37,768 nt of DNA from Clostridia bacterium (GTDB lineage Bacteria; Bacillota; Clostridia; Peptostreptococcales; Acidaminobacteraceae), in NCBI GenBank assembly GCA_016938815.1, contig JAFGTX010000008.1, positions 1 to 37,768 on the forward strand. Reading direction: 5' to 3'. The notes below the pieces were generated by a model that made no database searches, was not told where the DNA came from, and was given only the letters and a program-made list of their open reading frames with translations. The translations under genes were made by a program, and so were the position numbers. Positions 23,451 through 37,693 of this stretch are shown piece after piece (position 1 is the stretch's first letter; each line of letters begins with the position of its first letter).

Positions 23451-24341
23451 CTATAAAGAACTCGCCTTCAGGTTATTCCTGATATGCCCGATGTTGCCCA
23501 TAATGCGTTTTGCTGTATCGGATTTGTTCATCGTATAAAGGTGAATCCCCTTGATGCCCCATGACAATAAATCCGTGATCTGCTCCGTTGCATAAATCGT
23601 CCCCGCTTCTTTCAGCGCAACAGGGTCATCATGGTACTTGTTTAGAATTCGCGTGAATTTGCTCGGAAACTTACATCCGGAAAGTTCGACGATCTTGCTG
23701 GTCTGGTTCTTGTTCAGCACCGGTAAAATACCTGCGATAACAGGAATGTTGATGCCCTTCTTTTGAATCAGATCATAGTAATCGTAAAACAATTCATTGT
23801 CGAAGAACAATTGTGTAATCAGGAAATCGGCACCCTCATCCACTTTGCGCTTGAGATGCTCTATATCCTGTTCCAGACTGATCGCTTCAATATGCTTCTC
23901 TGGATAGCAAGCCGCGCCAATGGTCATATTTTCTGCTCTTCTGATGTGACGGATCAAATCCGATGCATAGCTGAAATTGTCCTTTAGGTTGGAGAAATCA
24001 AAGCTTTCGGGTATATCCCCTCTAAGGGCTAGAATATTGTCGATATTGGCCTTTCTCAGTTCACCAATGGTACTTTCCAGCTCGGTTCTGCTGGACGTGA
24101 CACAGGTCAAATGTGCGATGGACTCTATCCCATAATGGTTCTTGATCCTCGATGCAATCTCCACCGTTTTGTCTTTTGATGTACCCATGGCGCCATAAGT
24201 CACACTAATGAAATCCGGCTCTAATTCTTTTAATTCTTCTATGGTATTGAAGATACCTTCCAGCGAAGGGTCATTCTTGGGTGGAAAGACCTCAAAGGAA
24301 AAGGTATGCTGCTTACTCTCTATCAAATCTTTAATGCTCAT
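23451..24341 (-). CDS. metF: Methylenetetrahydrofolate reductase
   Basis: 296-aa TIM-barrel flavoprotein that reduces 5,10-methylene-THF to 5-methyl-THF, the methyl donor for methionine. N-terminal FSFEVFPPK (about residues 14-22) with the conserved Glu, then EPDFISVTYGAMG, ILALRGDIP, GAACYPEKH and FLITQLFFDN are all MetF signatures. ATG follows AACGGGAGGTATAA. It is the fourth gene of the SAM-riboswitch operon, pairing methyl-folate supply with homocysteine synthesis. Confidence 0.95.
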   Translation of the reverse strand: MSIKDLIESKQHTFSFEVFPPKNDPSLEGIFNTIEELKELEPDFISVTYGAMGTSKDKTVEIASRIKNHYGIESIAHLTCVTSSRTELESTIGELRKANIDNILALRGDIPESFDFSNLKDNFSYASDLIRHIRRAENMTIGAACYPEKHIEAISLEQDIEHLKRKVDEGADFLITQLFFDNELFYDYYDLIQKKGINIPVIAGILPVLNKNQTSKIVELSGCKFPSKFTRILNKYHDDPVALKEAGTIYATEQITDLLSWGIKGIHLYTMNKSDTAKRIMGNIGHIRNNLKASSL

Positions 24342-24358: not shown

Positions 24359-25087
24359 CTATACGAATTCAAAGTTGCCCCAAGCGCCCATCTGATCATC
24401 TACGATGGCGATGACACCTGATATATCCTTGAATGTTCTGCTATAATTCAATACGTCCTTGATTTTGCTCTTATCGATGAGTAGATTGCCAAAAGCCGTC
24501 GCCGCCGCATCTGCAACCAGCGTATCTTTGGAAATGACCGTCACGGCATCACATTTGCCAAAACTCAATGAATGGCCCAGTTTTCCAGAAGAGGTGCATA
24601 TGCCAATCGGCAACTCATTCGAATCTATTTCTATGGACAGGTTGTTCACCTTGGAATGCGCCCCTCCATGAAGAAGCACACGTTTATTTTGAATGCTGTA
24701 AACGAAGAGATCGCCACCGTTCTCGATAATCAGTTCCTTCGTTTCTTTGTAAAACATCAATCCCAAATAGTGAGAAACAGCGCCGGCAACCGTCGCCATA
24801 GGTCCGACGCCAAGCTTTTTGGAAGCCTCTTTCATATGTTTGATGATCAAAGGGTCACTCGGCAAGACTTTAATCGGTTTTAAGCTGGCGTTGAATTCCG
24901 GGTAAATCTGGATATAAGCTTCAATGGTTTCGCGCAGCTTCTTCAATTCGACCTTGAGCACATCCTCCAAATCACCGTCTGTATAAATTTGAAGGTCTGA
25001 TTCAAAAATGGTGATATTGAAATTTTGAATTTGTTCTGGCGCTACATAACGTCTGTAATAGCGTTCTTCATAAATATCAGCTTTCAT
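24359..25087 (-). CDS. UPF0280 family (COG2122) protein, homocysteine synthesis accessory
   Basis: 242 aa, ApbE-like fold family. Segments MATVAGAVSHYLG, IIENGGDLFV and GICTSSGKLGHSLSFGKCDAVTV are characteristic. In methanogens a COG2122 protein has been linked genetically to homocysteine formation together with DUF39 and NIL-ferredoxin proteins; the gene order here repeats that association. I chose ATG at 25087 because it overlaps the ferredoxin stop (ATGAAAGCTGA), whereas the frame could extend to 25102. Exact reaction unknown. Confidence 0.85.
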   Translation of the reverse strand: MKADIYEERYYRRYVAPEQIQNFNITIFESDLQIYTDGDLEDVLKVELKKLRETIEAYIQIYPEFNASLKPIKVLPSDPLIIKHMKEASKKLGVGPMATVAGAVSHYLGLMFYKETKELIIENGGDLFVYSIQNKRVLLHGGAHSKVNNLSIEIDSNELPIGICTSSGKLGHSLSFGKCDAVTVISKDTLVADAAATAFGNLLIDKSKIKDVLNYSRTFKDISGVIAIVDDQMGAWGNFEFV

Positions 25088-25493
25088 GAGACACCACACC
25101 ATTGCTTATAGCCCTTGATGGACAGACCTTGATGCAGAGGTTGCAGCCAATACATTTGCTGTTTTGGAAGACAAGGGATTGCTCCTGATCAAGTGACAAG
25201 GCTTGAGACTGACATGCCGACGTACATAGACCACACTCTACACAAACCGCTCTATCCACTGTGATGGTACTGTTGATGAAATCAGCCAGTACACCTTCCT
25301 GTTCAACATATTCCAATCCGCGAGCAATATTTTCCGAACTGCCATCCACCTCTACGAAAAGTGAGCCTCTGAAGTTGAAGTCAAAAGACGCTTTGATGAT
25401 GTTGATTTTCAAATCATAATTCTTGATCAAGTTATATACAATCGGCTTGTCGCCTGTTGTGTTTGGAAAAGTAATTAGCAATTTTGATTTCAT
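25077..25493 (-). CDS. NIL domain / 2x[4Fe-4S] ferredoxin protein
   Basis: 138 aa. An N-terminal NIL domain (about residues 1-75, as in methionine transporter ATPases) is fused to a ferredoxin with CVECGLCTSACQ and CIGCNLCIKVCP, each followed by the fourth Cys or Pro in family fashion. The protein likely delivers electrons or sulfur for homocysteine formation by the DUF39 partner. Its ATG shares one base with the DUF39 stop. Confidence 0.9.
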   Translation of the reverse strand: MKSKLLITFPNTTGDKPIVYNLIKNYDLKINIIKASFDFNFRGSLFVEVDGSSENIARGLEYVEQEGVLADFINSTITVDRAVCVECGLCTSACQSQALSLDQEQSLVFQNSKCIGCNLCIKVCPSRAISNGVVSHES

Positions 25494-26644
25494 TATTCTC
25501 TCATCCCCTTTGTTGAACTGTTATGTGTAAATATCTTGATTGGTTCTTGAAGATAGAATTCACCATCTTTAATGGCCTGTTTCAATTTTTCTGCGATTTC
25601 GCGGGCTTTCTTTAAACTCGATGTCGGCGCCGTCTTGATCTTTTTACCATCAATTTCAACAGAACCCGATCTTAATTCACTATAGGATACTCTTGCCACT
25701 ACCGGTTTAGAACGTCTCGGTACGCTATAATCCACAACGTTTTGGAAAAGCTCGTCATTGGATACCGCCAACTGCTTAAGGAGTTCTTTATCCAATACCG
25801 GAATAGGAATCCCTACCCCCACGCTGAAAGAGGTGCCATAACCTTCGAATACCGCTGGACGAATATACTCTGGGTCCATCTCTTTAAGATTGCCCACCAA
25901 AGCCAGTGTGGCACCGCCACCCAGTGGAATACCGTTTTCATCTCTGTGTGTTGCCGAATTGAACTGAGTGCCTTCCCAAGCCACATAGCCCTGAGTACCG
26001 GCAAACCAGATTCTCGTCCCCATGCCGATTGTTCTGTAGTATGGATCGTTCAAAAGCGGGCTTAAGGTTCCTGTTGTCGCATAGTTGACATTGCCCCTGT
26101 TCTTTTTCAGCATGCCCATATAAGTGAATTTATGCTCATTCGACGTGTTAATCGCCGCATTGTAATTTTGATAGCAGTTACGAGGATTGTAAAGGTAGGC
26201 TTCGTTCAAATCCTCTAAACGCAATTTTCTACGAATCTCTTGATTAGGGTAACAATCCGTTCCCTTACCAGTGGCATGCAGTTCAACCTCCTTACCACGT
26301 AGCAAATCGTAAATAACATGGGCGCCACCATATTCATAGCCCTCAGTGATAGATTCTTCCGTAGCGCCAATAAAGGTATCGACCGCTGCCAAACCGCCAC
26401 TAACCGGTACATTGTTCAATGTGATTTTTTCCATTCTAATCGGTGGATCTGAATGCCCAAAATTAAGGAAGGCTCCTGACGAGCACATCGGTCCAAAGGT
26501 TGCTGTCGTCACAACATCAACCTGTTCAAAAACTTCATCTATACCTTTTGCCTTTACCATATCCACGATTTCCTCCGCCGATACGACAACAACTTCACCA
26601 GTTCTGATTTTTTCATTGATTGCTTCATACGTTCTCTTTTCCAT
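25493..26644 (-). CDS. Homocysteine biosynthesis protein (HcyBio, DUF39, COG1900)
   Basis: 383 aa. With sulfide, this family converts aspartate semialdehyde to homocysteine in anaerobes lacking the usual route. Two conserved cysteines are seen: Cys54 in GPMCSSGAFLNFGH and Cys131 in KGTDCYPNQEI, matching the positions I recall for the methanogen protein. A flavin- or substrate-loop-like IWFAGTQGYVAWEGTQ is present. ATG follows TAGGAGGTTAAC. It is the first gene of the SAM-I-controlled operon, and its first partner, NIL-ferredoxin, is coupled by a one-base overlap. Confidence 0.92.
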   Translation of the reverse strand: MEKRTYEAINEKIRTGEVVVVSAEEIVDMVKAKGIDEVFEQVDVVTTATFGPMCSSGAFLNFGHSDPPIRMEKITLNNVPVSGGLAAVDTFIGATEESITEGYEYGGAHVIYDLLRGKEVELHATGKGTDCYPNQEIRRKLRLEDLNEAYLYNPRNCYQNYNAAINTSNEHKFTYMGMLKKNRGNVNYATTGTLSPLLNDPYYRTIGMGTRIWFAGTQGYVAWEGTQFNSATHRDENGIPLGGGATLALVGNLKEMDPEYIRPAVFEGYGTSFSVGVGIPIPVLDKELLKQLAVSNDELFQNVVDYSVPRRSKPVVARVSYSELRSGSVEIDGKKIKTAPTSSLKKAREIAEKLKQAIKDGEFYLQEPIKIFTHNSSTKGMRE

Positions 26645-26808: not shown

Positions 26809-26828
26809 GTTATACACCAAAATTGGCT

Positions 26829-26940
26829 TCTTATCTCTCAGGGCTTCTTTTCTTAGAAACACCTTGTAGGATTTAGCACCTTGGCTGTTGCCAGGTTGCC
26901 GGATTTCATAGGGCCTGTCCCTCCATCACTCTTGATAAGC
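26829..26940 (-). ncRNA. SAM-I (S-box) riboswitch aptamer
   Basis: On the minus strand the core reads CTTATCAAGAG, GATGGAGGGAC, GGCCC TATGAAATCCGGCAACC and AAGGTGCTAAATCC, ending in GAGAGATAAG that closes P1. These are the hallmark SAM-I segments (GGAGGGA, GAAxCCGGCAACC, GGTGCxAAxTCC). It controls the hcyBio-NIL-UPF0280-metF operon, so high SAM turns the operon off. Confidence 0.95.
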
Positions 26941-26957
26941 TTTATTAAATTATATGT

Positions 26958-27143: not shown

Positions 27144-27172
27144 TTGACTTTTATGTTAACCCCTGTTATTAT
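27144..27172 (+). promoter_or_regulatory. Promoter of the T-box mini-operon
   Basis: TTGACT (27144-27149), 17-base spacer, TATTAT (27167-27172). Transcription would begin near 27179, just before the T-box leader. Confidence 0.75.
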
Positions 27173-27189
27173 TCATATTAATATATTTG

Positions 27190-27412
27190 AAAACGTTGAC
27201 GGAGACAGTCAATGGATGCTCTAGTTCCAGAGAGTCGGGCTTGCTGAAAACCGATACTATCATCTTTTGAAAATCACTCCCGAGTGAATCTTTGAACCTC
27301 AGTAGAAGATTCCGCTGACCGGCGTTAAGGTATTGAGCGATGTGTTAAGACACATAAGTAAGGTGGTACCGCGGGTAATCTCGTCCTTGATTTTTATCAA
27401 GGGCTTTTTTTA
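27190..27412 (+). ncRNA. T-box leader, probable isoleucine (AUC) specifier
   Basis: All T-box parts are seen. Stem I: GGAG near 27203 pairs with CTCC near 27276; distal CAGAGAGTCGGG and a CTGAAAACCGA counterpart (27239-27266). Specifier side: TTTTGAAAATCACTCC, read as GAA-A-ATC-A-CTCC, giving AUC followed by A. Stem II: GAATCTT with AAGATTC enclosing GAA and AGTAG. Stem IIA/B: CCGCTGACCGGCGTTAAGG. Antiterminator: AAGGTGGTACCGCGGG (27360-27375). Uncharged tRNA should relieve the terminator. The Ile call depends on register; AAT (Asn) and ACT (Thr) are less likely. Confidence 0.93.
27382..27411 (+). terminator. T-box terminator
   Basis: GTCCTTGAT pairs with ATCAAGGGC (27383-27391 and 27396-27404), followed by six T. 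Its 5' arm overlaps the antiterminator region, as in standard transcriptional T-boxes. Confidence 0.92.
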
Positions 27413-27526
27413 TTGGCTAAGTAAGCAGAACACCTGCTTCTACACCCACCCCGTGGTGGTATCTCTGTTGACACAACAAATATATGAAAAATTGTGCGAA
27501 TATTCTGAATTAAGGAGGTGACTTAT
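27413..27526 (+). other. 5' untranslated stretch between T-box and first small ORF
   Basis: 114 bases with two short hairpins (AGCAG-CTGCT near 27424; a CCAC/GTGG type near 27443-27460) and no T-run after either. A strong ribosome site AAGGAGGTG at 27512-27520 ends the stretch. No other gene is seen. Confidence 0.5.
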
Positions 27527-27709
27527 TTGAATCGAAACACGATGACGACTGTACATCACGTGTATAAGTACAATGAAAAGCAAGCTGCCAATCAGGGTCA
27601 AACGGCTTATACACCGGCAGTTACTGAAAGAAAAAACAGCTGTGTCAACGCTAGCATGCCCATGAATTTCTTTGGTGTGGGTCCTATGACGGACGAATTT
27701 GATTATTAA
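27527..27709 (+). CDS. T-box-controlled small protein 1 (60 aa), unknown
   Basis: Start TTG at 27527 lies 8 bases after a full AGGAGG; the GTG at 27518 is inside the ribosome site and ATG at 27542 has none. The 60-residue product has no signal peptide or membrane span, one Cys (NSCVNAS), is near neutral, and contains no Ile, Leu or Trp. It ends in MNFFGVGPMTDEFDY, which resembles part of the next peptide. I know no family. Possible roles are precursor peptide, regulatory peptide or toxin/antitoxin; no modifying enzyme, protease or transporter gene adjoins. Confidence 0.7.
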   Translation: MNRNTMTTVHHVYKYNEKQAANQGQTAYTPAVTERKNSCVNASMPMNFFGVGPMTDEFDY

Positions 27710-27732
27710 TTAAAATTTAGGAGGAATGACCA

Positions 27733-27873
27733 ATGACAATGTATCAAATGAATATGACAGAAGAGCAAACAATGGAAGAATACGAAGCTTCAAGGACCAA
27801 TTATTTCGGTACAACGATGTACGATGACGATTCACTGGACCAAGCGCTTAATGAATTTTTTCAGCAAGCCTAA
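27733..27873 (+). CDS. T-box-controlled small protein 2 (46 aa), unknown
   Basis: ATG at 27733 follows TTAGGAGGAATGACCA, a strong ribosome site, 23 bases after ORF 1. The product is strongly acidic (6 Glu, 4 Asp, 1 Arg), Met- and Tyr-rich, has no Ile or Cys and no membrane segment. Residues about 22-34 (TNYFGTTMYDDDS) match the tail motif of small protein 1 (MNFFGVGPMTDEF), suggesting a shared ancestry or common recognition by a partner. Too short for normal gene-calling thresholds. Confidence 0.7.
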   Translation: MTMYQMNMTEEQTMEEYEASRTNYFGTTMYDDDSLDQALNEFFQQA

Positions 27874-27903
27874 GGCAAAATAATCTGATAAGGGGGAATC
27901 ATT

Positions 27904-27966
27904 TTGGTAGACATTCTGGGCGATATTGAAGACCTCAGTGATATTGATCTCAAAATGACAAAATAA
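27904..27966 (+). CDS. T-box-controlled small peptide 3 (20 aa), unknown
   Basis: TTG at 27904 follows AAGGGGGAATCATT (spacing about 7). The 20-residue peptide MVDILGDIEDLSDIDLKMTK is acidic and has a regular D-I/L spacing that could make an amphipathic helix. Unlike its two neighbours it has three Ile. The stop TAA leads directly into the terminator. The ribosome site is good, but proof of translation is needed because of its length. Confidence 0.5.
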   Translation: MVDILGDIEDLSDIDLKMTK

Positions 27967-28010
27967 CAGCGTCGCTTTCACAATGCATGAAAACGACGCT
28001 GTCTTTTTTT
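27966..28010 (+). terminator. Terminator of the T-box mini-operon
   Basis: CAGCGTCG pairs with CGACGCTG (27967-27974 and 27994-28001), continued inward by TTTCA/TGAAA, then seven T. It may also stop minus-strand transcripts from orr, whose stop is 26 bases beyond the stem. Confidence 0.92.
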
Positions 28011-28025
28011 TATTTTATTATAGGA

Positions 28026-29084
28026 TTATTCGCTAACTTTTGTTACATATTCTGATGTCGCAAGCATTAATAAAGAACCATAGTCCACGCTAAATGATAA
28101 GATATCGCCTACTTGGTACTCTTTATCCGAGTGTGTAATATCTACAATCAAATGGTCGCTACTTGCGCCTAATATGTCTGTTTTTTCATCTCTTGGTACT
28201 AAGTCACCAGGACGTGCATCTTGTTGTCCGACAGCAACGATCGCACGCAACATTTTGCCTTTATCTTCAAAAGAAGGCACATTACCAAAGGCATCCATAC
28301 CGATTTCACCTTTAGGGAGTGAATCCTTTTCTTTAAGCTCTACAATTTGACCTTCTAGTGTAAAACAATCACTGTGAAGACCTTCTATAGGATGACCATA
28401 AGCAGTTTCTCTGCCCAGTACATAAGCTTCACCCGGTCTTAAGTTGGTAATACCTGTAGGAATTTGACCATTCTCAACAAGGTAATAACTGCTCGAATTA
28501 CCGCCTGAAACCATTTGAAGTTTGATGTTGAATTTTTTCTCAATCGCTGTCGCAATTTCAACCAATTCTCCAAGATTTGTCGTACTTGGGATAATACCAC
28601 CATAGCATGTCAAGTTAACACCTAAGCCATATAGGTTGATATTGTCCAGTTTAAGAATTTCTTCAACCGTCGCATCTACATCTTTAGGTAAAACACCTTC
28701 TCTTAAGTCACCAAGATCTACCATCAATAGGATATCATGTACCTTACCTGCTTTTTTGGCTTCCGCATCAATGGCTTTGATCGTTTTCAATTCCGAGTTA
28801 AAACTCAAATCTGCGTACTTCACAACTTCTTCAACTTCGCTAAGCATAGGAATACGAATAAGTACCTTTTTTGCATTCAAATCTTTAAGTTTCATAAGAT
28901 TTTTTACACGTGAATCCGCAAGCATCGTTGCACCACCATCTAAAACTGCTTGAGCAACCTTAGGGTCTGCACAAAAAACTTTAGTGACACACATGATATC
29001 AATATTCTTTTCACCACATCTCTTAGCGATAATTGATACATTCTCTTTGATTTTCTTAAGATCCGTTTTTAATACTGGATACAT
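28026..29084 (-). CDS. orr: Ornithine racemase
   Basis: PLP enzyme of alanine-racemase fold type III, 352 aa, the length of the Clostridium sticklandii ornithine racemase. PLP lysine is in MCVTKVF (Lys34); VDLGDLREGV, MVSGGNSSSYY and LRPGEAYVLGR are further cofactor-site segments. It supplies D-ornithine to the aminomutase. ATG follows AAGGGGAGGTAATGAA. Last gene of the ornithine operon. Confidence 0.93.
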   Translation of the reverse strand: MYPVLKTDLKKIKENVSIIAKRCGEKNIDIMCVTKVFCADPKVAQAVLDGGATMLADSRVKNLMKLKDLNAKKVLIRIPMLSEVEEVVKYADLSFNSELKTIKAIDAEAKKAGKVHDILLMVDLGDLREGVLPKDVDATVEEILKLDNINLYGLGVNLTCYGGIIPSTTNLGELVEIATAIEKKFNIKLQMVSGGNSSSYYLVENGQIPTGITNLRPGEAYVLGRETAYGHPIEGLHSDCFTLEGQIVELKEKDSLPKGEIGMDAFGNVPSFEDKGKMLRAIVAVGQQDARPGDLVPRDEKTDILGASSDHLIVDITHSDKEYQVGDILSFSVDYGSLLMLATSEYVTKVSE

Positions 29085-29130
29085 TTCATTACCTCCCCTT
29101 ATTTTATATCAGCGCTTGGCGCAGTATATA

Positions 29131-30501
29131 CTATATCTTCAAGCTTTTCTTCATAAGCAACAATGCCGCTTCTTTATTCTCTTTGGATAAGACACCAAGG
29201 GATGCCATGATATAATCGTTGTCAATCAAGACTTCTACCTGTATTGTCGGCAATAGTTTATGACCTTTGTTACTCAGTGGCACTTCTTTGATGATGTTGA
29301 CACGATTTGGCAATCTAGTCAATGCACCACCCGTGCCGACGATATATTTCACACTGGTTAGGTCCTTGCCTTCTGCCATGGATTTTTTCCCGCCGCCTTT
29401 GAAAAGGTCGCGATAGCCTCCTGCGTGTCGGTTAGCAGAAACGATCACAGCCTCTTTCGTCAGCCTTTCAACAAACTTGAACTGTGCCTCTGTCTTTGGA
29501 ATAGGTACGTGATTTTCAACCAAATCTCGCACCTGATCTGCTGAAAATTCCAACTGCTGCTGCAATTTTTCTTCGCCAATCAATTCGACGATATTGAGCA
29601 TGTTGACATAAACGCCTAAATCACCTTCAACCGTTCGCTTGGCAACCGGTTCGGGAGCAAGAAGTACCCGACTGACCTCTTCACTGCCTTCCGTTACCGA
29701 GTGGATGTCCGTTGTTGCCCCTCCGACATCAATGGTCACCAAATCGCCAATCTCCTCTTTAAGGACCTTAGACGCTTCCATAACGGCTCCAGGTGTTGGT
29801 ATGATTGGTCCATTGACCATTTCACGCACGTGGGACATGCCCGGCGCATGGATAATGTGTTCCTCGAAAGCATCCTGAATTACTTTTCTTGTTGGTTCTA
29901 CGTTAAGCATATCGATTTTAGGATAAACATTCTCCACGATGTAAAGTAAGTCGCGTTTGCCTACCTCTTCGAATATTTCAATGATTTCCTCATGATTGTC
30001 TATATTGCCGGCGTAAATTACCGGTACATTCATTTCAAGCCCTGCAATAACTTCAGCATTATAAAGTGCTGTATCCCGCTCACCGTGGTCTACGCCACCT
30101 GCAATAAGAATAATATTGGGTTTGATTTCCGTGATTCTTTTAACGTCTGTTCTTCTTAGTCGTCCAGCCGTCACCAAGTGGATATTGGCACCTGCACCGA
30201 GCGCTGCTTCCTTCGCCGCTTTCGCCGTCATGTCATACACCAGACCATGTACAGTCATTTTAAGGCCACCAGCTGCACTACTCGTTGCAATAAGTTCGTC
30301 GTATTCCACTTTTTCAACACCAAGATTATGAGCCAAATCTTCGATTGCTTTTGATAAACCGATGGTGACATCATCTTCTTTTACCGTGGTTGGCGATTGA
30401 CCCTGACCTACAAACTTTGGATCTAAGGTGTTCAAATCACTAAACGCATTAACAACAGTTGTCGTACTGCCAATTTCTGCTACCAAAATATCAAATTTCA
30501 T
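29131..30501 (-). CDS. GlmL/MutL-type ATPase, probable reactivating factor for the B12 aminomutase
   Basis: 456-aa actin/HSP70-like ATPase of the MutL/GlmL family, which is encoded next to B12-dependent mutases. N-terminal phosphate loop VAEIGSTTTV (about residues 6-15), LIAGGVDHGERDTA, and phosphate loop 2 VTIDVGGATTDIHS are visible; VGTGGALTRLPN is the adenosine motif. It presumably exchanges damaged cobalamin in OraE/OraS. ATG follows CTGAAGGAGGTCGC. An unusual long hairpin precedes it. Confidence 0.87.
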   Translation of the reverse strand: MKFDILVAEIGSTTTVVNAFSDLNTLDPKFVGQGQSPTTVKEDDVTIGLSKAIEDLAHNLGVEKVEYDELIATSSAAGGLKMTVHGLVYDMTAKAAKEAALGAGANIHLVTAGRLRRTDVKRITEIKPNIILIAGGVDHGERDTALYNAEVIAGLEMNVPVIYAGNIDNHEEIIEIFEEVGKRDLLYIVENVYPKIDMLNVEPTRKVIQDAFEEHIIHAPGMSHVREMVNGPIIPTPGAVMEASKVLKEEIGDLVTIDVGGATTDIHSVTEGSEEVSRVLLAPEPVAKRTVEGDLGVYVNMLNIVELIGEEKLQQQLEFSADQVRDLVENHVPIPKTEAQFKFVERLTKEAVIVSANRHAGGYRDLFKGGGKKSMAEGKDLTSVKYIVGTGGALTRLPNRVNIIKEVPLSNKGHKLLPTIQVEVLIDNDYIMASLGVLSKENKEAALLLMKKSLKI

Positions 30502-30519
30502 GTTGCGACCTCCTTCAGT

Positions 30520-30571
30520 TTTTTCGCTCTCTTAAAATTACCAATTAGAGTAACCTTAAGAGAGCGAAAAA
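30520..30571. repeat. 16-bp inverted repeat between oraE and glmL
   Basis: TTTTTCGCTCTCTTAA (30520-30535) pairs perfectly with 30556-30571 around a 20-base loop. On either strand the stem ends in A, not T, so it is not a conventional terminator. It probably acts in the mRNA to stabilise or process the oraE segment. Confidence 0.8.
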
Positions 30572-30607
30572 GCTCCAAATATGAAGCCTTTCCGCTATAA
30601 TTGCAGA

Positions 30608-32815
30608 TTAGTTACCTGCTTTTTCTTCCATTCTCTTAACAAAGAATGTCGCTACGTTGACACCTCTGTCATGTTTGCTAAAACCTTGATCCATACCGTT
30701 CTTAACTGCGATTTCAGGTGTAACCTGAGTACCACCTGCACAGATGATGATCTTATCTCTAACACCTTTTTCAACCGCATACTCATGAAGTCTCTTCATG
30801 TTTTTGTAGTGGATGTCATCATGAGATATGATTGTCGATGCAAGGATACAGTTTGCATTGTGCTCAATCGCTGCATCTACCAATTTTTCAACTGGAACTG
30901 AAGTACCAAGGTACTCTACTTCCATACCGTATTTCTCGATGCCGCCATGCTTGATGTCGATTACTTCTCTAAGACCAACAGAGTGTTCGTCTTCGCCAAC
31001 TGTAGCTGCAACAATTTTGATACCATGCTTTTCATTTAAAGCTCTGATTTCGTCGTCGCTCATTATTTCTGGCTCTGGTGGGATCTCAAGCTTAGCAAGA
31101 TCGATATCAAAGTCAAGAACACCTTTTACTTGGATTCTTGTACCTTCAGTTGGATGTAACACTTCTGAGTGAATAACTTCTGGATCTTGAATGTTCATGC
31201 CCTTAGCAAATTCAAGCGCCGCATATTCAGCAACACGTCTTTCAGTTGGTAAGAATAATTCAACAACAACGACACCATCAGCCAACCATTGAACTTCTGG
31301 TTTGATTTTCGATGTTGATCTGTATTCTTCTGTTTCAGCCATACGCACATTAACGTTATCGTTTTCATCCAATTCATCGATGTAAACGATTTTTTCAGGT
31401 TTTTCGAATGTACAACCGCCGATTAATGACGCTGGGTCATTGACTGCAGCTGGATCGTATTGAGCCACGTTGTTGTTACCAAAGTGAGCTGTAACTGGTG
31501 CCATGTAATCTGCATCTCTTTCGTATACTGTACCTGCACCTACACCGCCAGCGATTTGACGACCAATACCGTCGCCGTTTCTTTCAGGGTACATACCTGA
31601 GTCTACGAAGAACCCTTTTTCAACCGCTTCAAAGTAACCGCCTGCTTCGATGATTTCTTCCATATAAAGAAGTGCTCTCTCTTTAAGCTCTCTTGCTTGA
31701 TCTCTTAATGGGCCTTCTTTTTTAAGTTCAACCATTTGTAGTAATGAATCAAGACCTACTAATGTTTGTTTTGCAGTATCACATGCTTCGATGTTGTACA
31801 TATGCCAAGGCACGTTTCTACCTTCATCTGGTGTGATTGTCGATTGGATATCCGCACTTGTAAGTTTAGAGATTACCATGTTAAGAACATGTGTTACCGT
31901 TGCTTCTCTAGAAGAAGAAGTAACGTATTTCGTATTCATCTGTGCTCTCATTCTATACTCAGTGAATAAATCTCTAAGTGCAACTGCGTAAGGTAAGTCT
32001 AATTGTGTACATGGCGCTGGTGCTGATGTTGGAGGTACAGTTGATAAACAGATGTTTGATTTTTTCATACCAACTTTGTGAGAGAAAATCGCGTTAAGAC
32101 CATGCTGAACCATAAGTTCAGGCATAACCTTCCAAGCTTCTCTCGCAGTAGCGTTCGCATTGTGGGCACCGTCGATTTGAGCGATGTCAGCCCATGTCAT
32201 AACCGCTTTAGATTCAGCCGCATCAACAAATGATCTTACCATGTTAACGTTTCTGTAAAGTACGTTGTATTGAGGGTCTTGGTGAGCACCGTTAACGCCT
32301 TCTTCAGCGAACATTACCGCTACGTCTGGACCTGCAACGCCCGATACGTATGAATGGTAGTTAATTGGTCTACCCACTTCATCTTCGATCATATCACACG
32401 CTTTTCTATGTGCTCTAACTTGCTTTCTTGTAATTGGGATACCACCAATACCTTGAGGAGAACCTTCGATAAGGCCATCAAAGTGTGATTGTCCTGCCGT
32501 TCTAATTACCATGATATGGTCAGCACCATGCCAAGCAACCATTCTCATTCTTCTGATATCGTCTTCAAAACGGCCAGAAGCGATTTCTGTTGTAATCGAG
32601 TTATGTGGTTGCGGGTCGATGTCGCCAAAGTATTTATTACAAGGAATACCTACATAGTTGTCTAATGACGCCGAACAGTCGTTGTATGTGAAAGGACCGA
32701 TTTTTTGGTTTTCGATTTTCTCTCTCCAAACCCAGCCTCTTCTTCTTGGTCGGTAATTTTCCAAATCTTCTAGTATTGCTCTGACGTCCATTTTTTGATC
32801 TAGCTCTAATTTCAT
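30608..32815 (-). CDS. oraE: D-ornithine 4,5-aminomutase, large subunit
   Basis: 735-aa adenosylcobalamin/PLP enzyme that moves the 5-amino group of D-ornithine to C4, giving 2,4-diaminopentanoate. The B12-binding motif is DEHSVG near the C-terminus, with the cobalt-ligand His at about residue 611 and the PLP-binding Lys in VIDIKHGG at about 622. The 11-residue separation is that of the C. sticklandii enzyme. C-terminal Rossmann domain: ASTIISHDD and CAGGTQVTPE. ATG follows AAGGGAGGTAAGTAAAC. The adjacent OraS completes the enzyme. Confidence 0.96.
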   Translation of the reverse strand: MKLELDQKMDVRAILEDLENYRPRRRGWVWREKIENQKIGPFTYNDCSASLDNYVGIPCNKYFGDIDPQPHNSITTEIASGRFEDDIRRMRMVAWHGADHIMVIRTAGQSHFDGLIEGSPQGIGGIPITRKQVRAHRKACDMIEDEVGRPINYHSYVSGVAGPDVAVMFAEEGVNGAHQDPQYNVLYRNVNMVRSFVDAAESKAVMTWADIAQIDGAHNANATAREAWKVMPELMVQHGLNAIFSHKVGMKKSNICLSTVPPTSAPAPCTQLDLPYAVALRDLFTEYRMRAQMNTKYVTSSSREATVTHVLNMVISKLTSADIQSTITPDEGRNVPWHMYNIEACDTAKQTLVGLDSLLQMVELKKEGPLRDQARELKERALLYMEEIIEAGGYFEAVEKGFFVDSGMYPERNGDGIGRQIAGGVGAGTVYERDADYMAPVTAHFGNNNVAQYDPAAVNDPASLIGGCTFEKPEKIVYIDELDENDNVNVRMAETEEYRSTSKIKPEVQWLADGVVVVELFLPTERRVAEYAALEFAKGMNIQDPEVIHSEVLHPTEGTRIQVKGVLDFDIDLAKLEIPPEPEIMSDDEIRALNEKHGIKIVAATVGEDEHSVGLREVIDIKHGGIEKYGMEVEYLGTSVPVEKLVDAAIEHNANCILASTIISHDDIHYKNMKRLHEYAVEKGVRDKIIICAGGTQVTPEIAVKNGMDQGFSKHDRGVNVATFFVKRMEEKAGN

Positions 32816-32817
32816 GT

Positions 32818-33192
32818 TTACTTACCTCCCTTGAAGATTTGTACAGCGTCATCCCAATGCTTGCCTTCAATCATTTGAAGACCTGCATCTCTTACTGTAA
32901 TATTTTTTTCTTTAGAGATTCTGTAAACGATGTGGCCAACACCCTTACCCATTAAACCTCTGTCAATAGCCCCTTCAACAAGTGGCTTAGCTTCTAAGCT
33001 CGAGAAACCCATTCTAAGTAGTACTGAACGCTCTACCGATGGTGAAGTATGCGTTTTTGCAAGATCCAATAATGGATCAACAATTTTTTCAGCAAGTTCC
33101 CAGAATCTTGCCTTTAGTTCATCATCCGAAAGTGATTCCAGATGCTTTCTTCTAGTTAGAAAGTCATCTTCTCTTTTTAAATAACCTTTCAT
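32818..33192 (-). CDS. oraS: D-ornithine 4,5-aminomutase, small subunit
   Basis: 124-aa partner of OraE. ARFWELAEKIVDPLLDLAKTHT, SVERSVLLRMGFSS and GHIVYRISKE are recognisable OraS segments. It is helical and has no metal motif of its own. The stop is 2 bases before the oraE ATG. ATG follows TTGGAGGGATATA. Confidence 0.94.
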   Translation of the reverse strand: MKGYLKREDDFLTRRKHLESLSDDELKARFWELAEKIVDPLLDLAKTHTSPSVERSVLLRMGFSSLEAKPLVEGAIDRGLMGKGVGHIVYRISKEKNITVRDAGLQMIEGKHWDDAVQIFKGGK

Positions 33193-33207
33193 TATATCCC
33201 TCCAACC

Positions 33208-34617
33208 TTATTTTTCACTTAATTCTTTAAGTGTTTCTAACACGAATTCCTTAGACGTCTTTGTCTCTTCAACAAGGAACAAGATGTCTGCTTCTGAAAT
33301 ATCCGTTGTACCGACTTGATTCACAGCATTTTTAATCAATGATTTTCTGATTTTAACCATATCTAAATCGACTGCTTTAATCATTTCAGGATGACTTGGT
33401 AAAATAATATTTTCGCCTGGCACTTCCTCAGCAGGATTACCAAACTTAATTTCAATACCATTGTCTCTAGCAAATGACAATTGTGGTTGAACATGTTTAC
33501 CCGCGCCTGTGTATTCTGTCTCTTGTACAACGATGATTTGGTCTTCATCCATTTCCTTCGCGATACTGAACGCAGCTGCTAAAGAGGTATTCCCTGCCGG
33601 ACCTCTTTCAAGACCTTCGATTTGTGCAAGGGTTTCAGTCATATAGAATACCTCACCTTGCGCTACCGTTACATAACGGTCCATATATCTTAGTGGTCTC
33701 GCAGCCGATCTTGGCACGTCAGAACGGTCAGGCCATGTTGTAAATGGAATACCAAATCCTGTATGTCCTGTTGTAAATGATTTTTTATTGAATTGTGTAT
33801 CACTTGCCATGTGAAGACCTGACAAGTTTACAGAAGCTGCAACTACCTTACTGTCTGCACCTGCTTTTTTAAGACCTCTAGCAGTACCACTTAAATTACC
33901 ACCACCTGCGTTTGTACAAACAACCACATCAGGGTCTTTGCCAACACGCTCTCTCATTTGGATCGCCAATTCGTATCCAAGTGTTTCAACACCTGCAATA
34001 CCAAATGGTGTATAAAGTGACGCATTAAAGTAGCCAGTCTCTTCTAACATCAGTAAGAAAGAGTAAAATAATTCCGGACCTACAGTAAGCTGAACAACTT
34101 CAGCACCGTATGCTTCACACTTTCTCGCTTTTTCTACGATTTCAGGTTGACCTTTGTAAGTACTATCGTAACATTCTTGTACGATGATACATTTAAGGCC
34201 GTGCATTGCTGCTTGAGAAGCAACAGCCGCACCGTAGTTACCACTAGTTGCTGCAATAACACCCTTATAGCCCAGTTTTTTTGCATGGAAAACGGCATTT
34301 GCCGCTCTTCTTGCCTTGAAACTGCCCGATGGGTTAGCGCCTTCATCCTTTAAGAAAATTCTAGCGCCTTTGCCAGGAGCAGAACATTTTCTAGCAAGTG
34401 CTGTAAGATTTTTCAACTCATAAATTGGTGTATTACCAACGCCAGTTTCACCTTGAATTTTTTGCATTTCTTCTAAAGTGTAACCGGTTTCTTTCATCAT
34501 TTTTTCGAAATCGAAAGCAATGCTGCCTGACTCAAATACTGAATAATCAATGCCGATAGCCTTTTTCATGATTTCGTTTTTTCTGCCCATAACGGCTTCA
34601 TAACTCATATTACTCAA
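33208..34617 (-). CDS. ortB: 2-amino-4-oxopentanoate thiolase, beta subunit
   Basis: PLP-dependent protein of the threonine-synthase/cysteate-synthase-like fold, about 469 aa, that splits 2-amino-4-ketopentanoate with CoA to alanine and acetyl-CoA, with OrtA. PLP lysine lies in NPSGSFKARRA; ATSGNYGAAVA and TNAGGGNLSG are cofactor-phosphate and support motifs. Start: TTG at 34617, eight bases after GGAGG and overlapping the ortA stop (TTGAGTAA); GTG at 34626 would sit inside the ribosome site. Confidence 0.93.
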   Translation of the reverse strand: MSNMSYEAVMGRKNEIMKKAIGIDYSVFESGSIAFDFEKMMKETGYTLEEMQKIQGETGVGNTPIYELKNLTALARKCSAPGKGARIFLKDEGANPSGSFKARRAANAVFHAKKLGYKGVIAATSGNYGAAVASQAAMHGLKCIIVQECYDSTYKGQPEIVEKARKCEAYGAEVVQLTVGPELFYSFLLMLEETGYFNASLYTPFGIAGVETLGYELAIQMRERVGKDPDVVVCTNAGGGNLSGTARGLKKAGADSKVVAASVNLSGLHMASDTQFNKKSFTTGHTGFGIPFTTWPDRSDVPRSAARPLRYMDRYVTVAQGEVFYMTETLAQIEGLERGPAGNTSLAAAFSIAKEMDEDQIIVVQETEYTGAGKHVQPQLSFARDNGIEIKFGNPAEEVPGENIILPSHPEMIKAVDLDMVKIRKSLIKNAVNQVGTTDISEADILFLVEETKTSKEFVLETLKELSEK

Positions 34618-34918
34618 TGCTATCACCTCCGAATAAAATTTCTCTTAACTGCTTACCGATCTTCAAAAGTTCTGGCACATGATTACCAAAAGAATGTGCG
34701 TAAGTTGGGCCTACCTCTACTAATGTCCCTGTAACTTTTCTACCTGTGATTGTCTCGATTTCAACTTCTTCGCCTTTTTTAGCGGCTGCTTGTGCATACC
34801 CTTTTACCCACATTTCTAAAGGCACTTTTTTAGTGTCGTCAGGTACTTGTGGCGCTCTTTGTTCAGGCGTAAGAACGATGTTGTGTACCATTACCCAATC
34901 GCCTTTTTTCGCTTTCAT
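34610..34918 (-). CDS. ortA: 2-amino-4-oxopentanoate thiolase, alpha subunit
   Basis: About 102 aa. KGDWVMVHNIVLTPEQRAPQVPDDTKKVPLEMWVKG and GRKVTGTLVEVGPTYAHSFG are in keeping with OrtA. The small beta-rich protein is required with OrtB. ATG at 34918 follows AAGAGGTAATGAG; an upstream in-frame ATG at 34936 has a poorer site. It overlaps ortB. Confidence 0.92.
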   Translation of the reverse strand: MKAKKGDWVMVHNIVLTPEQRAPQVPDDTKKVPLEMWVKGYAQAAAKKGEEVEIETITGRKVTGTLVEVGPTYAHSFGNHVPELLKIGKQLREILFGGDSIE

Positions 34919-34958
34919 CTCATTACCTCTTTTCATTCTGTTAATACTGTCTATTGGA

Positions 34959-36005
34959 TTATTTTTCGATTAAGTCTCTTACGTCACCCATCATTGCTCT
35001 TGGCACTGGTAGGTCGATCATAGATTTTAAACCTGGTTTCGAATTGATTACGTGAGGAATCATGTTAACACACATAGCAATTGTTCCTAAACCACCTTCA
35101 ACTTCTGGTGTGATTGCCATGTTAACTTCTGGTGTTCCTTTAAGTGTGATGTAGTCACCAGTGTGTGTGCCTTCCATTTCAGGCTCAATTTGTTGAGGGT
35201 GGATCATGTCGATTTTAACTTGACCATCTACATAACCTTGACCTGTCATATTAACACCAGCTACGTCGCCAGCTGCAGCAAATCCGTATGGTGATTTTCT
35301 ATCAATTGTAGTTACGATTGGTTTCATTTGTTGTTCGAACTTTTCAACTTTCCAGCCGATAGCGTCTGCAATCATTGCTACTGATTCATGGAAGCCAACG
35401 TGACCAGCAAGTGATCCATCTTCAACGCCTTTGTTGAATGCATCAACTGTGATACCAACGCCTTGCTCTTCCATAACAGCAGGTCCGAATGGAGAAAGTG
35501 AGTTAACACGTTTTGCTTGGATTGATTCAACATCAGTCATACAACCTGTTAAACAAACTACCAATAAGTCCATGATAAGACCTGGGTTGATACCTGAGCC
35601 TAAAATTGTTACGCCATTTTCTTTAGCGATTTTGTCAAGTTCAGCCGCAAGTTCTGGCTGTTGTGCTTTTGGATATGACATTTCCTCTGCAGTAGAGATT
35701 ACATTTACCTTTTGCTCCAAGCAGTATTTAAGTCTTGGGAATGCATTTTTTGTGAATGAATCAGTTGCAGTTAATACGACGTCTACATTGCCGTTTTTAA
35801 CAACGTCTTCGATGTCTGCTTTGATGATTACGTCCGGTCTATCACCTTGCTCAATGCCTAATACTTCATACATGTTCTTGCCAACTCTTGATTCAGCTCT
35901 GTCACATACGCCTGTAACAACGATGCCTTTTTTTGTAGCAAGCATTTTAGCCATACCACTACCCATTGCACCGAATCCCCAAATAGCCACTTTTACATTT
36001 TCCAT
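34959..36005 (-). CDS. ord: 2,4-diaminopentanoate dehydrogenase
   Basis: 348-aa NAD(P)-dependent enzyme that oxidatively deaminates 2,4-diaminopentanoate to 2-amino-4-ketopentanoate. Rossmann motif WGFGAMGSGMAK at about residues 8-19, then CDRAESRVGKNM, and the dihydrodipicolinate-reductase-like C-terminus. ATG at 36005 is chosen from GGAGG 8 bases upstream; the longer frame to 36074 would begin inside the sigma-54 promoter region. First gene of the ornithine operon. Confidence 0.95.
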   Translation of the reverse strand: MENVKVAIWGFGAMGSGMAKMLATKKGIVVTGVCDRAESRVGKNMYEVLGIEQGDRPDVIIKADIEDVVKNGNVDVVLTATDSFTKNAFPRLKYCLEQKVNVISTAEEMSYPKAQQPELAAELDKIAKENGVTILGSGINPGLIMDLLVVCLTGCMTDVESIQAKRVNSLSPFGPAVMEEQGVGITVDAFNKGVEDGSLAGHVGFHESVAMIADAIGWKVEKFEQQMKPIVTTIDRKSPYGFAAAGDVAGVNMTGQGYVDGQVKIDMIHPQQIEPEMEGTHTGDYITLKGTPEVNMAITPEVEGGLGTIAMCVNMIPHVINSKPGLKSMIDLPVPRAMMGDVRDLIEK

Positions 36006-36050
36006 ATAAACTATACCTCCAAATATCATTTTCTTTCTGGCCATATATAT

Positions 36051-36067
36051 TGCAAGTTGAATGCCAA
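36051..36067 (-). promoter_or_regulatory. Sigma-54 promoter of the ornithine operon
   Basis: On the minus strand TTGGCATTCAACTTGCA matches TTGGCAN-N-TTGCA: GG and GC are separated by exactly 10 bases. It lies about 46 bases before the ord start, giving a transcript start near 36040. No -35/-10 sigma-70 pair is as good. Confidence 0.85.
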
Positions 36068-36130
36068 GTTCCATCTACCTTTCATTTTATGTATATAACT
36101 TTGTACAAAATTATCATTATATATCATTAA

Positions 36131-36196
36131 AAGCTAGCATTTACAAGCTAAGAGAAATTTTTTGAAAATTTTTGTTATTTTTTTAACTTGCAAGTT
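36131..36196. promoter_or_regulatory. Candidate upstream activator sites for the ord promoter
   Basis: A perfect 12-bp palindrome AACTTGCAAGTT (36185-36196) lies about 150 bases upstream of the predicted start, at enhancer distance. A direct repeat AAGCTA (36131-36136, 36145-36150) lies between. Either could bind the activator encoded next door; no binding data. Confidence 0.45.
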
Positions 36197-36230
36197 CCCT
36201 CCATTCCATCGGTCAAAATCCATTTCAAAA

Positions 36231-36277
36231 AACAAGAAAAGCAAAATATTTTGCACTTTGAGTGCAAAATATTTTGC
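36231..36277 (-). terminator. Terminator of the sigma-54 activator gene
   Basis: GCAAAATATTTTGCAC and its exact reverse complement (36241-36256, 36262-36277) surround a 5-base loop; each arm is itself mostly palindromic. On the minus strand TTTTCTTGTTTTTT follows, only 6 bases after the activator stop. Confidence 0.85.
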
Positions 36278-36283
36278 TTTTTA

Positions 36284-37693
36284 TCATTCTAACTCATATT
36301 TTTTCATTTTATACTGCAAATTCTGTCTCGAAATCTTTAAGACTTTTGATGTTTTGCTTATATTACTGTTATATTTCAGGAGCAAATCCTGAATCACTTG
36401 TTTTTCCAAGCTTTCAAGATAATCGTTAATACCGTTGGAGAGATCGATCCGCGTCTGCTGAGTCATATCCTGATTTTTTCTATGAGCCAGCTCATCCATT
36501 TTATGCGCCAAATGCTCTTTGGTGATGACATGCTCATCCATAACCATGTTCATGGCCGTTTCAATCATATTCTGAAGCTCCCTGATATTGCCCGGCCACG
36601 TGTATTCTTGGAATAATGCTTCTATATCCTTGCCAATCATCCAGACGTCTTTCCCCAGTTTCTCGTTATAAAGCCGTATAAAGTGCTCCGAAAGCATCTT
36701 AACATCATCCAATCGGTCTCTTAGACTTGGTATTTTGATGTTCACGACATTCAAACGATAAAAAAGGTCTTTTCTAAACTTACCTCTTTCAACGAGTTCA
36801 AGGATGTTTTCATTGGTGGTTGCAATAATCCTGACATCAACGATCACGTCTTTCGATCCACCAATCCTTCGGATATAACCTTCCTGTAGTACACGTAAAA
36901 GTTTGGCCTGCAGGGTGATACTCATGGAGTTGATCTCATCGAGTAGCAAGGTGCCGCCATTCGCTTGTTCAAAGAGTCCAGGCTTATCCAGCGCACCGGT
37001 AAAACTTCCTTTGACCGTTCCAAACAAAATACTTTCAAGTAAACTTTCCGGAAAGGCCGCACAGTTTTGGGCGATAAATGGTTTTTCGCATCGATCGCTA
37101 CCCGAGTGAACACTCTGGGCAAAGAGTTCTTTACCCGTCCCTGTTTCACCTTCAATCAAAACGCTGGAGTTTGACATGGCAGCGCGCTTAGCCATTTTTA
37201 TCGCTTCAAGCAATTTTTTGTTATTGCCTAAAATACTATCGAAATCATAGTAGATCGTACTCCGTTTCTTCGGCTTTTCCGGCTTCATCAGCCTTTCCTG
37301 AAGTTCTAAGATTTGCTCGGACATATTGTTGACATTTGTCAAGTTCTTAGCAATTTCAACAGCTCCAATCACTATACCCTCATGAAAAATAGGAAAAGTG
37401 GTATTCATGGTGGTGATTTTCTTGCCCTTCAGGTTAAGATAACTTTGCATCTCTTTATGTACGGATTTTTGCTGATTGATTGCCGATAACAAAGTACTGT
37501 TTTCTATTTGCCACGTTGGAAAAACATCGAGCAGGTATTTTCCAATTACCTGCTCTGATTCCAAACCTTCTATACGCTCCATAGCCTTGTTGTAGACTAA
37601 TGTCGTTCCATTTTTGTCAACAATATGAATCCCTTCTTCAACCTCCTGCAAAATATTTTGCATCGCTTGAATAATCAATAATTCGCGCTTCAT
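36284..37693 (-). CDS. Sigma-54-dependent transcriptional activator (PAS, AAA+, Fis-type HTH)
   Basis: 469 aa. N-terminal PAS sensor about residues 8-115 (EEGIHIVDKNGTTLVYN); AAA+ domain about 150-390 with Walker A GETGTGKE (182-189), sigma-54-contact loop GSFTGA (229-234, A to S against the usual GAFTGA), Walker B GGTLLLDE, FRKDLFYRLN and the PGNIRELQN segment; C-terminal Fis-type helix-turn-helix (NISKTSKVLKISRQNLQYKMKK). It lies just upstream of the ornithine operon, facing the same way, with a sigma-54 promoter between. It is probably the operon's activator; the PAS ligand is unknown. ATG follows TGAGGAAATAAT. Confidence 0.9.
   Translation of the reverse strand: MKRELLIIQAMQNILQEVEEGIHIVDKNGTTLVYNKAMERIEGLESEQVIGKYLLDVFPTWQIENSTLLSAINQQKSVHKEMQSYLNLKGKKITTMNTTFPIFHEGIVIGAVEIAKNLTNVNNMSEQILELQERLMKPEKPKKRSTIYYDFDSILGNNKKLLEAIKMAKRAAMSNSSVLIEGETGTGKELFAQSVHSGSDRCEKPFIAQNCAAFPESLLESILFGTVKGSFTGALDKPGLFEQANGGTLLLDEINSMSITLQAKLLRVLQEGYIRRIGGSKDVIVDVRIIATTNENILELVERGKFRKDLFYRLNVVNIKIPSLRDRLDDVKMLSEHFIRLYNEKLGKDVWMIGKDIEALFQEYTWPGNIRELQNMIETAMNMVMDEHVITKEHLAHKMDELAHRKNQDMTQQTRIDLSNGINDYLESLEKQVIQDLLLKYNSNISKTSKVLKISRQNLQYKMKKYELE

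Follow-up and report, generated by a model that had tools for sequence, protein, structure and literature searches.

T-box leaders usually control genes for aminoacyl-tRNA synthetases, amino acid synthesis or amino acid transport. A small-protein counterpart is AT, the product of rtpA, which is a zinc-binding, Cys-rich protein of about 50 residues whose operon begins with a tiny peptide ORF. This anti-TRAP protein of B. subtilis is induced by uncharged tRNA-Trp (PMC7430163). In C. difficile, 26 T-boxes have been reported and none of them is located on small peptides (PMC11477304). The literature searched, whose coverage was partial, yielded no description of a T-box operon of small peptides. 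A separate line of work holds that proteins needed in starvation avoid the missing amino acid (Alves and Savageau 2005, discussed in PMC4209129), and this avoidance is described there for biosynthetic enzymes.

The operon considered here lies in a window of 37,768 nucleotides, meaning the whole stretch of DNA that was analysed, from a Clostridia bacterium of the family Acidaminobacteraceae. A previous sequence-only reading had placed at positions 27144-28010 a promoter, a full T-box leader, a terminator, three ORFs of 60, 46 and 20 codons, and a closing terminator, and all of these elements are confirmed. The promoter, recognized from its sequence, is strong and of the sigma-70 type (TTGACT-17-TATTAT with an extended TG; 27144..27172, plus strand, as for all operon features below). 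It is followed by an isoleucine-specific T-box leader (27187..27391) that matches Rfam model RF00230 with 130.4 bits (E=7e-29, gathering score 93) over model positions 1-219, which is the full length. The covariance-model search proposed by the earlier reading returned a complete leader.

Alignment to the RF00230 model identifies the specifier codon as AUC (Ile; 27273..27275) in the context GAAAAUCAC, which the T-box of this genome's ileS gene (L002) shares, and assigns the T-box bulge UGGU to 27364..27367 within the antiterminator. A UGGU bulge pairs with an NCCA end whose discriminator is A, and the specifier codon and the UGGN bulge of this leader appear to fit one and the same tRNA. The leader terminator (27383..27411) consists of a 9-bp stem (27383-27404) and seven T nucleotides. 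Its stem overlaps the 3' side of the antiterminator, and the sequence GUCCUU is common to both, so that the two structures are mutually exclusive. A small hairpin, CCACCCCGTGGTGG, is present between the leader terminator and ORF1 (27446-27459). The leader is closest in sequence to the ilvA and ilv/leu T-boxes of relatives, and may therefore have been acquired from an operon of that kind.

The closing terminator (27965-28003 with T-tail, feature span 27965..28011) can also be used on the minus strand by the convergent gene. No long ORF exists between the leader and that orr-like gene at 28026. The operon contains no synthetase, biosynthesis or transport gene, and only three small ORFs precede its terminator, as had been noted earlier. 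Judged by eye, the convergent region (28026-37693, minus strand) is an ornithine fermentation cluster of orr, chaperone, oraE, oraS, ortB, ortA and ord-like genes that sits behind a sigma-54-type regulator. On the other side of the operon, a SAM-I riboswitch (26828-26941, minus strand, 76.5 bits) is located upstream of a probable homocysteine-synthesis operon made up of DUF39-like (25493-26644), ferredoxin (25077-25493), UPF0280-like (24359-25102) and metF-like (23451-24341) genes.

ORF1 (27527..27709) has 60 codons and a TTG start, contains neither Ile nor Leu, and ends with MNFFGVGPMTDEFDY. Its Shine-Dalgarno sequence is AAGGAGGTGA (27512..27521, spacing 5). ORF2 (27733..27873) has 46 codons and an ATG start, is acidic and free of Ile, carries the motif TNYFGTTMYDDDSLD, and is preceded by AGGAGG (27719..27724, spacing 8). 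ORF3 (27904..27966) has 20 codons, a TTG start, three Ile codons and the ribosome site aaggggg, and its stop codon adjoins the stem of the closing terminator. The strong ribosome sites previously claimed for all three are present before ORF1 and ORF2, whereas the site of ORF3 is weaker.

All three ORFs are coding-like. Read in frame, they score codon-usage log-odds of 0.23, 0.39 and 0.54 bits per codon, the last value coming from 19 codons only, compared with a mean of 0.36 and a 5th percentile of 0.14 for 141-base pieces of 33 long window genes. In none of the alternative frames, five per ORF, does the value exceed 0.03. No match was found in Pfam, NCBIfam, PHROGs or PDB sequences, and no relatives were found in viral contigs, plasmids or phages. 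Searching 394 genomes of the order with ORF1 by sequence alone gave no convincing match, and the weak tblastn matches in one genome (G001) and others were set aside as chance. AlphaFold models were poor (pLDDT 61 and 56) and hence unfit for a fold search. ORF1 and ORF2 do not resemble each other significantly (p=0.24), and their grouping as one family therefore depends on a short motif. Common ancestry of the two was set aside on this value and kept as a lead.

This genome has 25 T-boxes, and the other 24 all precede synthetase, amino acid biosynthesis or transport genes, as identified by eye from translations. These are pheS, ileS, serS, aspS, cysK, hisZ-like, leuA, trpB, cysS, argS, a GNAT gene followed by valS, alaS, two metG, thrS, trpS, leuS, glyS, trpE, argG, carA, an arginine-type ABC transporter, proS and tyrS. 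No ilvNC T-box is among them, yet one is present in each of five other genomes (G010, G011, G020, G024 and G055). The genome's own ilvA is intact at another place and has no T-box; its presence led us to set aside an ilvA gene deleted downstream of the leader. We examined 140 T-boxes of five relatives, and in nearly every case a long ORF is found within 250 bases. The remaining ones were inspected and are upstream of lysS, metG, alaS, ilvN-ilvC or similar genes, except for one in G024 (transposase-like ORF) and one in G010 (60-codon ORF before ilvN). The G024 example (L152, G024:C2:323910-324114) is at a contig end, and its transposase-like ORF (MGTKRVKKKKAKSLKLAYSFHVEIESRF...) follows the T-box by about 260 bases. 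Tandem T-boxes, Ile (AUC) and then Val (GUA), precede ilvN-ilvC at L224 (G024:C17) and L228 (G055:C30).

All small ORFs of the fetched loci were scanned for N[FY]xG near the C-terminus together with a ribosome site. Exactly eight ORFs were recovered, namely ORF1, ORF2, three homologs with sigma-B-type promoters that are described below, and three new ORFs in G021, G007 and G010. In G021 (genus g2, L077), a promoter, a T-box with an AUC specifier (93.3 bits) and a terminator precede a 49-codon ORF1-like ORF (1627-1776) ending in LNFFGAGRMDELF, with the C-terminal end NFFGAGRMDELF. A GTG-started ORF of 17 codons follows (MSDLPGDISRGTHDFKK), and its stop codon adjoins a further terminator, which gives the layout of the window operon minus ORF2. 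The G021 ORF resembles ORF1 with z=6.7 and p=3e-4, and the 17-mer shows weak similarity to ORF3 (p=0.055). G021 is the only other genome from which an ORF1 relative is known, and this relative surfaced only by following the orphan T-box.

In G007 (genus g8, L038), a T-box-like leader with an AUC specifier and a terminator precedes a 32-codon ORF2-like ORF (MTTKEREEMKKQALNSYANSNLNYFGTNSRRD; p=7e-4 against ORF2). This leader (1285-1460) has no Rfam match. The distal part of Stem I is wholly missing and AUC is located in a 6-base hairpin loop (CAAUCA), reflecting either an extremely short Stem I or a deletion, and the antiterminator and terminator are kept. After the 32-codon ORF (approximately 1594-1635) there is a ribosome site and an AUC-started frame, (I)ESDIGIIVLIS to TGA, and then a terminator. 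This frame is Ile-rich and ORF3-like in position. The third new ORF (G010, L225) has 60 codons, contains KCNFMGEAFEDEN and is preceded by a T-box with a CUC (Leu) specifier and followed by ilvN, ilvC, ilvB and leuA. It does not resemble ORF2 significantly (p=0.30) and the sigma-B paralog only marginally (p=0.05), and so it was not accepted as a family member and is kept as a lead.

An enzyme gene is absent from both of the other stand-alone Ile T-box operons (G021 and G007), which are independent cases. Together with the operon's own terminator, this indicates that no enzyme has been cut off downstream of the leader, an outcome that the sequence-only reading had named as grounds for abandoning its proposal. 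It had likewise named a lack of reading-frame conservation in relatives, and ORF2, ORF1-like and ORF2-like frames are found in other genera.

Homologs of ORF2 occur in G024 (Acidaminobacter sp. JC074), G055 and G010, three Acidaminobacteraceae genomes that represent two other genera. These homologs share 35-38% identity with ORF2 over most of its length (E 3e-5 to 8e-5, single-sequence), and the invariant core of the family is TxEE[YF]ExxxTN[FY][IF]G. A profile search of 394 genomes of the order and 391 of the class recovered only the four known members. The homologs run well beyond the motif, have the appearance of cytosolic helical proteins, and are stand-alone genes, none with a T-box. Each carries a sigma-B-type promoter, GTTTAN-N13/14-GGGTAT, 27-45 bases before the start region, and this promoter is absent at ORF2 in the window. 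The fetched loci, about 311 kb in all, contain just two more matches. Across whole genomes the pattern exceeds its reversed control by a factor of only about two, so that single sites mean little and the evidence is its presence at three of three homologs. An rsbV-rsbW-sigB operon is present in all three genomes and in the window genome, with the similar sites GATTA-N-GGGTAT (G024, G055), GTTTAT-N-GGGAAT (G010) or GTTTTG-N13-GGGTAA (window genome) upstream of rsbV. Control of ORF2 appears to have changed from a sigma-B-type promoter to a T-box in this lineage. An earlier guess that the operon encodes stress peptides fits these sigma-B-type promoters at the T-box-less homologs.

ORF1 and ORF2 together have no Ile in 104 residues, where 7.9 are expected (p=2.8e-4), and none of the 7943 stretches of this length in 33 long window proteins is Ile-free. 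Leu is low (2 versus 9.3 expected) and Met is high (9 versus 3.1 expected), and thus the composition bias is not confined to Ile. The four proteins under Ile T-box control (ORF1, ORF2 and the G021 and G007 ORFs) have no Ile in 183 residues, an outcome with a probability of 6e-7 at an Ile frequency of 7.6%. By comparison, 10 of 208 residues are Ile in the proteins under other control, namely the three sigma-B homologs and the G010 Leu-T-box leader ORF (Fisher p=0.002). The ORF2 core has Met or Phe where its homologs have Ile or Leu (TNFIGN to TNYFGT, T[LI]EE to TMEE). Ile does occur in the tiny last ORFs, with three in ORF3 and one in the G021 17-mer. The Ile-free composition fits proteins that are needed while isoleucine is lacking.

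Because the two main peptides are Ile-free and related peptides are found behind a like switch in two related genera, the operon looks like a small isoleucine-starvation response that has so far not been described. The sequence itself shows the leader with its specificity, the ORFs with their relatives, the absence of Ile and the promoters of the homologs, whereas induction by starvation, translation, the change of control and the regulatory role are inferred. By analogy with other T-boxes, uncharged tRNA-Ile would contact both the UGGU bulge and the loop that holds the AUC specifier, which would let the antiterminator form and RNA polymerase continue into the three small genes. Since ORF1 and ORF2 are purged of isoleucine, their translation could still proceed when this amino acid is missing. 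The products would then bind a cellular partner, with N-[FY]-F-G plus the acidic segment as the likely contact. We consider it reasonably probable that this is an isoleucine-starvation microprotein operon whose Ile-purged products are small regulatory or stress proteins acting in trans, and the small-peptide system for amino acid starvation suggested by the sequence-only reading gains support from the AUC specifier and from the relatives behind Ile T-boxes, with induction deduced from the leader. A more specific scenario, which we put forward tentatively, is that microproteins once under sigma-B control moved to an Ile T-box and were rid of all Ile, with ORF3 possibly reporting isoleucine supply.

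The sequence likeness to ilvA and ilv/leu T-boxes also permits a reading in which the leader is a relict that once drove ilvA or ilvNC. On this view the gene has since disappeared or changed place, and the small ORFs are remnants or leader ORFs that serve no purpose themselves. The T-box-less ilvA, the missing ilvNC T-box and the 60-codon ORF between such a T-box and ilvN-ilvC-ilvB in G010 are in keeping with this. However, codon bias and strong ribosome sites are retained in the ORFs, a terminator of its own ends the operon, and in two other genera the relatives that follow Ile T-boxes are Ile-free as well, making the relict reading unlikely. An origin of the leader in an ilv operon and a present function of the ORFs are compatible. 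The same G010 arrangement, where a Leu-type T-box precedes one transcription unit made up of a small CNFMG-containing ORF and ilvN-ilvC-ilvB, could point together with the Ile-specific control to an accessory or regulatory subunit of a branched-chain amino acid enzyme (e.g. acetolactate synthase or threonine dehydratase) encoded in a separate operon. Given the weak relationship of the G010 ORF to ORF2 and its paralog, and the location of the sigma-B homologs away from ilv genes, we find a subunit role rather improbable.

It is still less probable that isoleucine starvation makes the operon produce a pheromone or a RiPP, as a secreted signal or a modified peptide whose active part is the C-terminal NFFGxGxM. 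Small size and the C-terminal end conserved between ORF1 and its G021 relative would suit such a product, but no signal peptide or hydrophobic segment is seen, neither Pfam nor NCBIfam gives a match, and the ORF2 homologs extend past the motif. Moreover, ORFs beside the operon in the window, G021 and G007, judged by eye, include no maturation enzyme or exporter. The earlier guess of a precursor peptide fares poorly for the same reason, and the conserved part is C-terminal rather than N-terminal. Finally, T-boxes bind tRNA and the transcript is short with a terminator at its end, so the RNA itself might be the product, either a tRNA-Ile sensor or sponge or a small RNA, with incidental ORFs. A non-coding RNA would not be expected to show codon bias in frame, to have protein homologs in several genera or to encode Ile-free products, and this idea is very improbable.

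If the microprotein reading is correct, the operon represents a dedicated isoleucine-starvation response of a kind not described before, in which, across at least three genera, a T-box leader specific for one amino acid serves solely to express microproteins. The tiny Ile-containing ORF, whose stop abuts the terminator, could then sense isoleucine supply at the transcript end. The apparent change of promoter suggests a direct link of amino acid supply to the sigma-B stress response. In addition, the N-[FY]-F-G motif with its acidic segment defines a candidate contact, and one small family with and without an Ile T-box offers a clean test case for cognate-amino-acid avoidance. Genes of this kind fall below normal annotation length, which makes the T-box a handle for finding them.

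Several known systems resemble parts of this operon. Its leader architecture and AUC specifier are those of Ile T-box regulons (ileS, ilvA, ilvNC), but no synthetase, biosynthesis or transport gene lies behind it. With the sigma-B general stress regulon it shares ORF2 homologs that have sigma-B-type promoters, whereas ORF2 in the window is behind a T-box without such a promoter, and the protein family bears no established name. Avoidance of the missing amino acid by starvation proteins (Alves and Savageau 2005) is a further likeness. The bias is known there for biosynthetic enzymes, whereas here it concerns microproteins from which Ile is wholly absent. The closest functional parallel is anti-TRAP, where a transcription-attenuating T-box likewise yields a small protein rather than an enzyme. 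The specifier is Trp for AT and Ile here, and the Cys-rich AT contrasts with a single Cys in ORF1 and its absence from ORF2; Pfam and NCBIfam gave no match that would place the ORFs in the AT sequence family. Both operons include a tiny peptide ORF, which comes first for AT and last in the window. The best reading by analogy is that the window operon would work like anti-TRAP, which inhibits a regulator by binding to it, as a source of a T-box-induced small regulator.
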